Below are positions 2,160 through 6,919 of a stretch of 64,000 bases of DNA, piece by piece. This stretch comes from Methylocystis silviterrae (lineage in GTDB: Bacteria > Pseudomonadota > Alphaproteobacteria > Rhizobiales > Beijerinckiaceae), in NCBI RefSeq assembly GCF_013350005.1, contig NZ_JABVWW010000015.1, positions 1 through 64,000 of the forward strand, given 5' to 3'. Positions within the stretch are counted from its first letter, which is position 1; every line of letters starts with the position of its first letter. The notes beneath the pieces are model-generated. The model did no database searches and was not told the origin of the DNA. It was given only the letters and a program-made list of their open reading frames with translations. The position numbers and the translations under genes were made by a program.

Positions 2160-2300
2160 CCCGCTCAACGGCGACTCGCCGCCGCGCGCGCGGCGCTGCT
2201 AAACCTCTCCAGATAAGCCATAATGTAAAAAGGACGCCGGTTCGGCCGTCCGGCAGCCATCTGAATGGGCGCGGCCGGCGGTGACCGTGGGGGAAGCCGC

Positions 2301-2310
2301 GGAGGAGGAG
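2301..2310 (+). promoter_or_regulatory. Strong Shine-Dalgarno fixing the P-type ATPase start
   Basis: GGAGGAGGAG lies 8 bases before the ATG at 2319. This decides the start of the fused P-type ATPase against an in-frame upstream start at 2265, whose extra residues are low-complexity Gly/Arg. Confidence 0.7.
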
Positions 2311-2318
2311 CCCTAAGC

Positions 2319-5300
2319 ATGCAGCCTTCGGCGGAAGGAAAGGAATATTGGGCGATCGGCGCCGATGCGGCGCTTGAGCGCCTGGGCGTGACGCGTTTGG
2401 GCTTGAGCGAGGCTGAAGCCCAAAGACGACTCGCCGTCCATGGCCCCAATCGCCTTCCGGCCGGCAGGCGGCGCAGCGCGCTCATGCGCTTCGCGCTGCA
2501 GTTCCACAACGTATTGATTTATGTGCTGCTCGCCGCCTCCTTCGTCACGGCGCTCATGCAACACTGGATCGACACCGCGGTCATCGTCGCGGTCGTCGTC
2601 ATCAACGCCATCATCGGGTTCATTCAGGAGGGCAAGGCCGAAGAGGCCATGGAGGCTGTCCGCAACATGCTGTCGCTGCATGCGACGGTCATTCGAGACG
2701 GGCAGCGCGTCGTCATCGACGCGACCGATGTCGCGCCTGGCGACATCGTCTATGTCCAATCGGGCGACAAAATTCCGGCTGACATCCGTCTCATCCGGGT
2801 CAAATCTCTCAAAGTGCAGGAGTCGGCGCTCACCGGCGAGTCGCTGCCGGTCGACAAGGACCCGGCGCCGGTCATGGCGGATGTGCCGCTCGGAGATCGG
2901 GCTCCGATGGCCTATTCGGGGACCGTCGTGACCTACGGTCAGGGAACGGGCGTCGTCGTCGCCACGGGCGCCGCGACCGAGATCGGTCGCATCAACGCCA
3001 TGCTGTCCGAGGTGGAGACGCTTACCACTCCCTTATTGCAGCGCATGGATGAGTTTGCGCGCTGGCTCACGGTCGTCATTCTGGTCGTGTGCGCCGCCGT
3101 TTTCGCTTTTGGCGCGCTGGTCTGGAATTTCGACGCCGGCGAGATGTTCATGGCGGCGGTCGGGCTCGCGGTTTCGGCGATCCCGGAAGGATTGCCGGCG
3201 ATCATCACCATTACGCTGGCGATCGGCGTGGAGCGTATGGCGCGGCGCAAGGCGATCATCCGCCAACTGCCGGCGGTCGAGACGCTCGGCGCCGTGAGCA
3301 CGATCTGCTCGGACAAGACCGGCACGCTGACGCTCAACGAGTTGATCGTGCGCTCGATCGTCATCTCCGGCGGCGTCTACGACACGACCGGGTCGGGATA
3401 CGATCCGCATGGCGGCTTCCTGCGCAATGGCAAGGACGTCGTGGTGCGCGAGGACATTCACCTGACCGCGGCTTTGCGCCCTCTTGCGCTCTGCAACGAC
3501 GCCGTGCTGCGCGAGAAGGACGGCACCTGGAGCGTCGAGGGCGATCCGACCGAAGGCGCCTTGCTTGCCGCCGCCGTCAAAGGCGGCGTCAACCTGGAAA
3601 AACTGGCGCTGGAGCTGCCGCGCACGGATGAGATTCCTTTTGAGTCTCAGCATCGCTTCATGGCGACGCTGCATCACGACCATGAGGGCGCTGGGTACAT
3701 TTTCGTCAAGGGAGCGCCTGAGCGGCTGCTCGAAATGTGCTTCTGGGAGCAGGGCGCGCGAGGAGAGCAGCGTCCGCTCGATTGCGCCTGCTGGCTCGAC
3801 CGCATCATCGAGATGGCCACGCGCGGGCAGCGGGTTTTGGCGGTCGCCTCCAAGAAAGCCGAAGAGGGTCAGCAGCAACTCGCGTTCGGCGACGTTGAAA
3901 ACGGACTCGTCTTTGTCGGTCTCATCGGCCTGATCGATCCGCCGCGCCCCGAGGCCGTCGATGCGATCCGCGCATGCGCGATCGCCGGCATGTCCGTCAA
4001 AATGATCACGGGCGACCACGCCGCGACGGCGATCGCCATCGCCCGCGAACTCGGACTCAACCGTCCGGATTCAGTGCTCACCGGACGCGATCTCGACGCG
4101 ATAGGCGACGAGGAGCTCGGCGAGGCGGCAAGCGCCACGACGGTGTTCGCGCGCACCAGTCCCGAACATAAGCTGAGACTCGTTCAGGCGTTGCAGAAGC
4201 GCGGCGAAGTCGTCGCGATGACCGGCGACGGCGTCAACGACGCGCCTGCCTTAAAGCGCGCCGACATCGGCATAGCGATGGGCGTCAAAGGCACCGAGGC
4301 GGCGAAAGAGGCCGCGGAGATGGTGCTTGCCGACGACAATTTCGCATCGATCGTGCATGCGGTGCATGAGGGTCGCGTCGTCTACGAAAATTTGAAAAAG
4401 ACCATCCTCTACATCTTGCCGACCAATGGCGGCGAGGGCCTCACGGTGATCGCGGCGATCGCGATGGGCGAGACCCTGCCGGTGACCCCGGTGCAGATCC
4501 TGTGGATCAATTTGATCACCGCGGTCACGCTCGGCCTCGCGCTCGCGTTTGAGCCGCCGACCAAGGGCGTCATGCTGCGTCCGCCGCGCCCGTCGGGCGA
4601 ACCGATCCTGTCCCGCTATTTCGTCTGGCGTATCGTTTTCGTTTCTTTCCTGATGCTGATCGCGACCTTCGGTCTCTATGAATTAGAGAAGGCGCGCGGC
4701 ATGGGGCTCGATAGCGCTCGGACGGTCGCGGTCAATACGCTCGTCGCCTGCGAAGTCGCTTATCTCTTCAACGCGCGTTTCCTTTCCGAGTCGTCGCTCT
4801 CGTGGAAGGGTCTGTTCGGCAGCCGCGCCGTGCTGATCTCCGTCGCCATCGTCGTCGCGCTGCAGGCTTTGTTCACTTACGCGCCCTTTATGCAGGCGCT
4901 GTTCAACACCACGCCGCTCGACCTGGAGATATGGTGGCATATCGCTGGCGCGAGCGTCGTGCTGTTCCTGCTCGTCGAAGTTGAGAAAGCGATTTTCCAT
5001 TCGCGGACAAAAGCTCCCGCGGCCCGTGGCGTTCCTGCGACGACCGGCGCGGCCGCCGTCGTCGCGCCTGGCGACTGGGTCCGACCTGTCGTCGCCGGTT
5101 TATTGGGGCTGCTCATCATTGTCGTGAGCGGCGCGTTCTATCTTCACACGCGCGTCAGTCTCACGCGCGAAGAAGCGTCAGCTGGCCGAACGATCGACGT
5201 CAGCGGCGTGATCGCCCCGGTCGCGCAGACGCCGATCAATGCGCCTGCGGCGGGCGTCGTCGTGACGCTCTCTTGTGACGTCGGCGCGCAAGTGGAGAAG

Positions 5301-5972
5301 GGCGAAACCTGCGCGACGCTTGCGCCATCTTCCTCCGACGAAACTCTGGCGCGCGAGAAAAGCGCTCTGGCGGCCGCTGAGCGGCAATTGACGCGGCGCG
5401 AGCGCGCGCAGGCGAGGGCGCAGGCGAATCTCGACAGACGGGAGGCGCGGTCAGGGCGTCGCGCGGCCAGCCGCAAGGCGCTGAGCGCGGCGCGTCGCGC
5501 TCTGGCGCGGGCGCGGGCGCAAGTCGAGCGCGCCGAAGCGGAAGTCGCTCTGCGCCGGGAGGCGGTGACGAAGGCGGAGGCGGATCGAGTCGGCGCCGCG
5601 ATTGTCGCGCCGGTCGCAGGTTTCGTCATAGAGCGAAGGGCTGCTGTCGGCGCGCGCGTTGAAACGGGCGCGCCGCTGTTCATGATCGGCGACGCCAAGA
5701 CCGTTCGCCTTCGGGGGATGGCGGAGGGGGAGGGCGCCCTGACGATCGCGCCGGGCGCCAAGGCGCTGCTGACGAGCGAGTCCGTCCCTGGCCGGACATT
5801 TTCAGGGAAGGTGACCGAGGTGCGCCGCCCCGCGACGCCGCAAGCGGGCGCGAGGGTCGACGTGGTGGTTGAGTTCGAGAATTCCGACCTCGCACTTCGA
5901 CCGGGAATGGCGGCGTCGGCGCGGATCGACATCGAGGAGCGTGCCGCGACGTTAGGCGAAGAAGAAATTTGA
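2319..5972 (+). CDS. P-type cation ATPase fused to a HlyD/MFP-type periplasmic adaptor
   Basis: A single 1217-residue reading frame. Residues 1 to about 890 are a complete P2-type ATPase: N-terminal cation-ATPase domain, TGES actuator loop (172-175), PEGLP in M4 (289-293), phosphorylation motif DKTGTLT at Asp332, TGDGVNDAP hinge (635-643) and ten predicted membrane segments ending near [17 protein letters not shown] Pro/Ala linker follows, then an extra membrane helix (about 920-945). Next comes a membrane-fusion-protein module: half-lipoyl motif around INAPAAGVV, Arg/Ala-rich coiled-coil hairpin (about 1007-1090), second half-lipoyl motif around IVAPVAGFV, and a beta-barrel ending [15 protein letters not shown]. 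With a cytoplasmic ATPase C-terminus, the eleventh helix would place the adaptor in the periplasm. Usual P2 ATPases are about 850-930 residues and lack this module. The cation is unknown: in M6 the sequence NLITAVT has Ala735 where SERCA has its ligand Asp. No outer-membrane channel gene is nearby. Confidence 0.88.
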
Positions 5973-6124: not shown

Positions 6125-6209
6125 TGGTGCCCCTGGCCGGAGTCGAACCAGCACTCCTTGCGGAACTCGATTTTGAGTCGAGCGCGTCTACCAATTCCGC
6201 CACAGGGGC
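6125..6209 (-). tRNA. tRNA-Leu (anticodon CAA)
   Basis: Read on the minus strand, the 85-nt gene begins GCCCCTG and ends CAGGGGCA-CCA, giving a perfect 7-bp acceptor stem and an encoded CCA. The D-arm region GGCGGAATTGGTAGACGC is typical of leucine tRNAs. The anticodon stem CTCGA/TCGAG encloses the loop CTCAAAA, giving anticodon CAA, which reads UUG. A long class II variable arm and the GGTTCGACTCC T-arm follow. Confidence 0.95.
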
Positions 6210-6340
6210 CCGGCCGGCGGGAAGCCGGCGAAGCGGCGCGGATATTAGCGGCGGCGCGGCGCCCGTCAACCCGCGAAACTTCTTTCTTCAACGCTTACGT
6301 GCTATGCGCGGGCAGCGCGTCGCGCCAACCCCGGGAACAG

Positions 6341-6919
6341 ATGAAAAAGCTCTACGACTGGACCATGTCGCTCGCCGCGAGCCGGCATGCGCCCCTGGCG
6401 CTCGGCGCAATCGCTTTCGCCGAGAGTTCCTTCTTCCCGGTGCCGCCAGACGTGATTCTCGTGCCGATGACGCTCGCCGAGCCGAAGAAGGCCTGGTATT
6501 TCGCAGGCATTTGCACGATCGCTTCCGTCGCGGGCGGGGCGCTCGGCTATGCCTTCGGCGCGCTCTTCTATGACACGATCGGCCAGTGGCTGATCAATCT
6601 CTACGGCTACGGCGAGAAGATGGAGGCGCTGCGCGCCTTCTACGCGCAGTGGGGCGCGATCTTCATTCTGGTCAAGGGCTTCACGCCCATTCCCTTTAAG
6701 CTCGTGACCATCGTCTCGGGGCTTCTCGCCTATAATTTCCCGCTGTTCATCGTATTGTCGATGGTGACGCGGGGGGCGCGGTTTTTCGTGCTGGCTGCGG
6801 CGATCAATCGCTTTGGCGACCCGATCCGCTCGAAGCTCGAGAGCCACTTCGGACTTTTCATCGCGTCGCTGGCGGTGATCGTCGTCGCCGGCTTCGCGCT
6901 TGCGGCAAAGATGTTTTAA
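6341..6919 (+). CDS. YqaA-type SNARE-associated (VTT/DedA-like) membrane protein
   Basis: A 192-residue inner-membrane protein with about four to five hydrophobic segments. It carries VTT/DedA-like features: AFAESSFFPVPPDVILVPMTL near the N-terminus and GFTPIPFKLVTIVSGLLAYN in the middle, where family members have a conserved re-entrant loop. It matches the YqaA branch. DedA relatives are implicated in lipid flipping and membrane homeostasis; the precise function here is unknown. The ATG at 6341 is chosen because the upstream reading frame overlaps the tRNA and is low complexity. dsbB follows within 20 bases, suggesting co-transcription. Confidence 0.85.
   Translation: MKKLYDWTMSLAASRHAPLALGAIAFAESSFFPVPPDVILVPMTLAEPKKAWYFAGICTIASVAGGALGYAFGALFYDTIGQWLINLYGYGEKMEALRAFYAQWGAIFILVKGFTPIPFKLVTIVSGLLAYNFPLFIVLSMVTRGARFFVLAAAINRFGDPIRSKLESHFGLFIASLAVIVVAGFALAAKMF

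Follow-up and report, generated by a model that had tools for sequence, protein, structure and literature searches.

The window analysed here, 64,000 nucleotides of Methylocystis silviterrae (contig NZ_JABVWW010000015.1, positions 1 to 64,000), carries at 2319..5972, on the plus strand, a fusion gene whose 1217-aa product joins a P2A-type cation ATPase to an additional transmembrane (TM) helix, TM11, and to a MacA-like periplasmic adaptor module. The open reading frame (ORF) is free of stops from 2265 to 5972 on the plus strand; a second in-frame ATG is present at 2265, and the 1217 residues are counted from the ATG at 2319. The ATPase part (residues 1-890, 2319..4988, motifs [23 protein letters not shown]) was delimited by Pfam, NCBIfam and structure matches and has a pooled ratio of non-synonymous to synonymous substitution (dN/dS) of 0.10; TM11 (residues ~921-953, 5079..5177) was delimited by structure models and dN/dS, and the periplasmic adaptor (MFP) module (residues 954-1217, 5178..5969) by Pfam, NCBIfam, AlphaFold2 and Foldseek, all on the plus strand. 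An initial annotation, made from the letters of the window, had described a single open frame in which a whole P2-type ATPase precedes an eleventh helix and a full adaptor module. The ORF, the Pfam and NCBIfam matches and the structure models bear out this description, and the assembled frame contains neither a stop nor a frameshift between residues 890 and 950.

Pfam domains were found on the fusion protein in the order Cation_ATPase_N (residues 10-76), E1-E2_ATPase (117-310), Cation_ATPase (390-474), Cation_ATPase_C (720-892) and HlyD_D23 (970-1199), and the NCBIfam model RND_mfp (TIGR01730) scored 98.5 bits against a cut-off of 94.9, with an MFP region at ~951-1210. AlphaFold2 modelling of residues 878-1217 (alignment of 58 rows, 7 of them free MacA-like proteins; mean pLDDT 86) placed a TM helix at ~921-953, then a barrel strand, a half-lipoyl motif, a hairpin, the other half-lipoyl motif and the barrel; the predicted lipoyl, hairpin and barrel module was obtained. 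The alpha-hairpin covers residues 1006-1091 (5334..5591, plus strand), with two helices of 42 residues each (1006-1047 and 1050-1091) and a tip located by row comparison, and the beta-barrel covers residues ~1119-1204 (5673..5930, plus strand). A pair of cysteines, C986 and C998 (C-x11-C; 5274..5312, plus strand), was recognised by row comparison in the first half-lipoyl motif. In the AlphaFold2 model the protein terminates after the beta-barrel, without a membrane-proximal domain, which is the part of adaptor proteins that touches the transporter; some other fusions reach farther C-terminally. The two best Foldseek matches of the module model were MacA chains (TM-score 0.57-0.58, query length), followed by EmrA, AcrA and others. 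A weak full-length model (residues 18-1217, 26 rows, pLDDT 65.5) had SERCA and SPCA as top matches and placed a separate helix after the ATPase part, before the module.

By its motifs ([18 protein letters not shown] and PEGLP) and its N, A, P and C-terminal TM domains, the pump is classed as a P2A-type cation ATPase, with no cation assigned. It shares every catalytic motif with the P2A ATPases SPCA/PMR1, SERCA and LMCA1, is 32-34% identical to SERCA, SPCA and LMCA1 in Foldseek alignments, aligns to SPCA1 across residues 26-879 and to LMCA1 across residues 18-888, and its helices fit ten TMs in a low-confidence model. It differs from these pumps in bearing TM11 and the adaptor, and in one residue of the cation site. 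The canonical Ca site of P2A Ca2+ pumps consists of the M4 Glu and the M6 Asp; M4 retains PEGLP in the query, whereas the M6 Asp of SPCA1 (INIIMDG) is replaced by Ala (INLITAV). Because of this replacement, and because the protein scored below the NCBIfam equivalog cut-offs for PMR1 (645 vs 798 bits) and SERCA (626 vs 703 bits), identity as a Ca2+ pump was set aside. The ATPase may resemble mycobacterial CtpF.

Relatives were searched with the module alone and the fetched loci were then read. Once identical segments were collapsed, 84 fused rows remained, which are those fetched, mostly best matches and mutually related; they exclude L139, L140 and L141, unfused MacA-like proteins in a long frame, and L142 and L145, which fell under the score limit. 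The partners are P2A ATPases in 48 rows, P1B ATPases (TPC motif) in 13, P3A ATPases in 6, P-type ATPases of unclear class (partial frames) in 2, CyoD in 8, the N-ATPase alpha subunit in 3, an AHSA1 domain protein in 3 and an unclassified membrane protein in 1. The P2A, P1B5 and P3A labels were assigned by motif patterns, and one example per main class was checked with curated models: RND_mfp was over its cut-off in the P1B (heavy-metal ATPase) example together with TIGR01525 (491 bits) and Pfam Hemerythrin, in the P3A (proton ATPase) example with TIGR01647 (964 bits), in the N-ATPase alpha example with TIGR03324 (863 bits), in the CyoD example with TIGR02847 (92.8 bits) and in the AHSA1 example with PF08327 (77.5 bits), the five family models being over their own cut-offs as well. 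The module occurs on at least seven kinds of partner, and the notion of a single odd fusion was rejected in view of these many partners and of the three genera involved (see below).

The individual partners were as follows. Loci L056, L057 and L070 encode N-ATPase (alternate F1F0) alpha subunits with a TM helix and a MacA-like module, and other N-ATPase genes, identified by reading, lie around all three; an F1 bearing as many as three periplasmic tails would be odd in itself. CyoD (cytochrome bo3 subunit IV) is joined directly to the module in L109, L157, L158, L163, L173, L174, L176 and L178, genome G796 having two copies, and in 8/8 loci the fusion lies ~2 kb downstream of the HPEVY motif of CyoB. 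The fused N-ATPase alpha and CyoD proteins are like their ordinary counterparts in that the family models score over cut-off (1/3 alpha and 1/8 CyoD fusions scanned) and the usual partner genes are adjacent, but they add a C-terminal MacA-like module past the end of the family model. In L175, L177 and L179 the module follows an AHSA1/SRPBCC domain and a TM (AHSA1 was checked by Pfam in L175 only), and in L172 (4859-6430) it follows a short hydrophobic protein whose N-terminal part had no match in Pfam (E 0.001) or NCBIfam (E 1e-10). The P1B fusion of L107 resembles P1B-5 ATPases of the Nia type in having the TPC motif and, behind the ATPase, a hemerythrin domain (checked by Pfam in L107 only), but appends a TM helix and a MacA-like module behind the hemerythrin. 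Frames L103:8120-13015 (1632 aa) and L100:13169-17968 (1600 aa) contain a P2A ATPase and the module, with an AI-2E family permease N-terminal to the ATPase in L103. Three P-type fusions are carried by plasmid pGW6_1 of M. rosea GW6, in stretches that also hold smbP, PepSY, CDF, CusA and mgtA; each is annotated as a single coding sequence, and their only product name, HAD-IC family P-type ATPase, hides the architecture.

It was observed that a hydrophobic helix precedes the module in 68/76 non-CyoD rows, the other 8 lying below a simple hydropathy cut; in some rows this count might register the last helix of the pump itself. In the CyoD rows (8/8), no helix is added and only TM3 of CyoD precedes the module, the model TIGR02847 spanning the three CyoD helices. 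The C-terminus of CyoD is periplasmic by established topology, and the module directly follows TM3; these fusions therefore support a periplasmic location of the module independently of the P-type ATPases, in agreement with the location first proposed for the adaptor.

The distribution of the fusions was examined in order, class and family samples, with scoring of the best 7-9 candidates in each genome; because of this, and because diverged modules escape at the E-value limits, the counts are lower bounds. At least 24 of the 248 genomes (43 genera) of the family sample contained a frame >1000 aa that matched the module at E 1e-45 or better, and all 24 belong to three genera, Methylocystis, Methylosinus and the genus containing Methylocella. 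PF02461 (AMO/pMMO) was matched in 31/248 family genomes, confined to the same three genera, and 23/24 fusion genomes were PF02461-positive, G016 being the exception. A deeper census took in the 31 pmoA+ genomes together with G018 and G759, 33 in all; 27 had fusions, among them 26/31 pmoA+ genomes, with G030 and G776 counted on frame length only. No fusion was recorded in G002, G710, G729, G771, G809 (fragmented assembly) or G759, which is Methylocella tundrae and has neither a PF02461 match nor a fusion frame. Two Methylosinus genomes are those of M. trichosporium OB3b (G747), with P2A, CyoD and AHSA1 fusions, and of Methylosinus sp. C49 (G685). No fusion outside the three genera was found among the matches listed for the order sample (297 genomes, 122 genera); the only frame >1000 aa outside Methylocystis among these matches, in G201, was rejected, as it overlaps an ordinary-looking MacA by a MacB-like gene and has no ATPase match. 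The class sample (289 genomes, E 1e-40 or better) contained no fusion, the longest other frame being 750 aa, and neither did 120 genomes (E 1e-30 or better; longest frame 550 aa) of one family outside the class, that of G916, one member of which bears PF02461. A widespread architecture was rejected, since none was found outside the three genera in these samples. The link with the pmoA genera suggests, without proving it, a role in cells with intracytoplasmic membranes (ICM).

Within the genus, an orthologue of the query (E < 1e-90) was found in 16/37 Methylocystis genomes, its own included, and module fusions were also present in Methylosinus, the other genus in which the initial annotation had suggested testing for the fusion. 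DUF541 and ArsC-like genes lie upstream in 15/15 fetched orthologous loci, accompanied by a GST gene in 14; L091 and L092 hold a second paralogue, located elsewhere. Compared with seven orthologues, the pooled dN/dS was 0.07 for the TM helix (residues 913-945, the most constrained stretch of the added segment) and 0.27-0.48 for the module parts. Judging from these ratios, selection acts on both the TM helix and the module.

The free proteins nearest to the fused modules are MacA-like, and those of L028 and L143, as well as the outgroup rows L113, L114 and L127, adjoin MacB-like genes (by reading). In a quick tree of 86 module rows, 73 of them fused (21 open forks; rows under 19 named prefixes, being near-identical, fragment or long-frame, were left out), the distinction between fused and free required one change and the partner labels 16 changes. 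A branch with an SH-aLRT of 96 gathered 72/73 fused rows, L101 being unplaced beside it. Fused modules cluster beside free Cys-bearing MacA-like adaptors, and the tree is consistent with a single origin of the fused module and its later shuffling between partners. An instance of such movement was found in the single-contig genome G819, where a block of 1,162 bp (98.2% identity) is common to a P1B-type and a P2A-type pump gene, two unrelated genes 1.66 Mb apart (L161:7338-8499 and L162:7446-8607). The block begins just ahead of the TM and ends at the stop of the P2A copy, with mismatches at its 5' end, and records a recent copying event that took the module and nothing else.

In the first half-lipoyl motif, both cysteines of the C-x11-C pair occur in 84/84 fused rows and also in the 8 free MacA-like rows that are intact; free rows L186 and L187, from the same family, and some outgroup rows have no Cys pair. 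Because the 8 intact free rows share it, the pair is inherited, and it was rejected as a mark of fusion. The RLS motif binds TolC in MacA and AcrA, and according to PMC3391258 substitutions at its R, L and S alter TolC binding and efflux, with the Ser tolerating more changes. The query tip, [12 protein letters not shown], failed the RxxxLxxxxxxS test, an Arg replacing the Leu of this TolC-docking motif; the same Arg is present in most query orthologues, and the Leu is gone in most fused rows. A strict RLS/T motif (R...L......S/T) was found in 6/81 fused rows vs 6/8 free rows, and the mean tip charge was +3.7 in 81 fused rows vs +0.4 in 8 free rows (p 1.1e-5, uncorrected for kinship of rows). 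Tip and hairpin counts omit rows in which the pattern was missed (fused L086, L166 and L167; free L186 and L187, whose aligned tip columns are R, L and S) and drop L089 and L144, labelled free yet pieces of broken fusions. The fused modules have thus retained the half-lipoyl Cys pair, and most no longer have the strict TolC-docking motif. Compared with MacA of the MacAB-TolC ABC pump, the query module has the same fold, domain order and hairpin, and the Cys pair is present in its nearest free relatives; it differs in being fused in cis, without an adjacent MacB or a membrane-proximal domain and with a degenerate RLS tip, and the NCBIfam MacA model scored far under its cut-off on the query (45 vs 342 bits).

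We propose that the C-terminal third of the protein is one copy of a portable MacA-like periplasmic tail, fitted by alphaproteobacterial methanotrophs to inner-membrane machines, that would act as a general tether or clusterer of these machines, a function to which we give a probability of roughly 0.4. The tail is argued to be general, rather than a dedicated conduit, because the RLS motif is mostly lost, the barrel seems to be lost in some fusions, hairpins vary, few outer-membrane factor (OMF) genes are found nearby and the partners are unrelated. The ATPase itself would go on exporting its cation into the periplasm from the cytoplasm, as P-type ATPases usually do, and TM11 would take the chain across the membrane and pack against the ATPase. 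The segment with the lipoyl motifs and the hairpin would reach several nanometres (our estimate) into the periplasm, where it would self-associate or bind further tailed proteins; hexamers shaped like a funnel are described for MacA, AcrA and MexA (PMC3391258). The Arg-rich tip would contact an anionic or proteinaceous component of the envelope, and the tail would tether or cluster energy-transducing complexes there, not conduct ions.

Several observations weigh against this proposal. The tail is not essential to the methanotroph lifestyle, because the query orthologue is missing at E < 1e-90 from 21/37 genus genomes and no fusion was seen in 5/31 pmoA+ genomes. By dN/dS, the module is under weaker selection than the ATPase, its parts having ratios 2.7 to 4.8 times as high. 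A frameshift splits the module in 1/15 orthologous loci (L089, genome G016), interrupted or partial copies occur in L144 and L072, and contig C24 of the query's own genome (L008, ~6283-6879) holds what is left of a second module, with no ATPase attached. The barrel is apparently missing in 8 P2A fusions, which end after the second half-lipoyl motif (4 by reading the sequence, 4 inferred from match length). Hairpin length by pattern is 97 in 8/8 free rows vs 52-136 in fused rows, 37/81 of which are at 97 and the extremes of which are possibly mis-parsed, and the Arg-rich tip may merely be coiled-coil drift.

A more specific form of the proposal, which we regard as unlikely, is that the tail directs proteins to membrane domains, as an address tag would, in cells packed with ICM. 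With the module spanning the periplasm to the outer envelope, the machines that bear it, namely cation pumps, the Na+-type F-ATPase and the bo3 oxidase, would stay in the peripheral membrane or at defined contacts with the ICM and would not end up in dead-end ICM lumens. If true, this would account both for one tail on unrelated machines and for its restriction to pmoA genera in the sampled family.

The alternative that best survives is an auxiliary subunit in cis: TM11 and the ectodomain would act like the Na,K-ATPase beta, FXYD or sarcolipin partners, stabilising the pump or tuning its cation affinity, and the periplasmic fold would matter mainly as a folded, perhaps disulfide-locked, cap. 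TM11 is indeed constrained like the ATPase (0.07 vs 0.10) and the module less so, and the Cys pair is retained as tip and barrel erode. However, the module also sits on unrelated partners, including an AHSA1 domain, and on CyoD without an added TM, which makes a pump-specific interface unlikely as the general function; we consider this explanation rather unlikely.

A passenger, that is, a recombinogenic 3' cassette propagated through gene conversion and fusion and tolerated rather than selected for function, would explain the recent copying in G819, the weaker constraint on the module, the broken copies and the loss of barrels. Against it, dN/dS is <1 in every part, the frame is open in 14/15 orthologous loci, the Cys pair is universal among the fused rows and the fusions are held in three genera, so that we find a mere passenger improbable.

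The initial annotation had favoured a tripartite conduit, in which the P-type ATPase feeds its cation into an adaptor funnel docked on a TolC-like channel and out to the medium. The complete adaptor fold, the long hairpin helices and the MacA chains as top structural match are those expected of such a device, a few fused rows keep the strict RLS/T motif, and Arg is frequent at its first position (38/47 P2A rows). Outer-membrane factors are present in the query's own genome, with 16 OEP matches spread over 8 frames, OMF genes lie 129 bp from the fusion of L060 and 556 bp from that of L157, and the three pGW6_1 fusions sit among metal and efflux genes; the OMF region of this plasmid was searched through L093 and an OMF was found. 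The OMF search left out two annotated plasmid loci, which thus provided no positive control. A P-type ATPase, however, releases its ions from a single monomer rather than into a ring, and the identical type of tail is found on F1 alpha, CyoD and AHSA1, where no cation exits at that point. A profile built from 7 OMFs detected no OMF gene in the window, and OMF genes were present within the fetched flanks of 8/83 fusion loci, though the flanks of the 8 free MacA-like loci likewise had none. The apparent absence of the barrel from 8 P2A fusions and the raised module dN/dS also count against a conduit, as does the loss of the RLS Leu in most fused rows and its replacement by Arg in the query group, since R, L and S substitutions affect TolC binding and efflux (PMC3391258). 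Non-pump partners, RLS loss, apparent barrel loss, the OMF-negative search of the window and the module dN/dS together weaken the idea of a primary pump handing its cation to an outer-membrane channel, which we now hold to be quite improbable. Finally, an assembly or gene-calling artefact is hardly credible, as orthologous fusions occur in independent genomes, among them the single contig of G021, and each of the three fused pGW6_1 proteins has one annotated coding sequence.

Adaptors are established as separate proteins that serve ABC, RND and MFS pumps, and P-type ATPases, F1 and bo3 oxidase are not known to have them; the pairing departs from the usual rules for pump and adaptor alike. No earlier description of any such fusion was found in the open literature, subscription papers and preprints being outside this coverage, and the remark of the initial annotation that no P-type ATPase with its own adaptor had been described stands within that limit. 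The parts are known, but as far as we can tell neither their combination nor the sharing of one adaptor tail by several unrelated machines belongs to a known kind. One adaptor-derived tail moving among such machines in one guild points to an unrecognised organisation of the envelope, and the tethering proposal is directly testable in M. trichosporium OB3b, a standard methanotroph with P2A, CyoD and AHSA1 fusions.

The neighbours of the fusion gene, the protein genes being named by reading, are ArsC-like and DUF541-like genes upstream, and a tRNA-Leu gene and DedA- and DsbB-like genes downstream. No MacB gene was present beside the query among the neighbours read. The tRNA-Leu(caa), at 6125-6209 on the minus strand, lies 3' of the fusion gene and is the sole tRNA found in the window.

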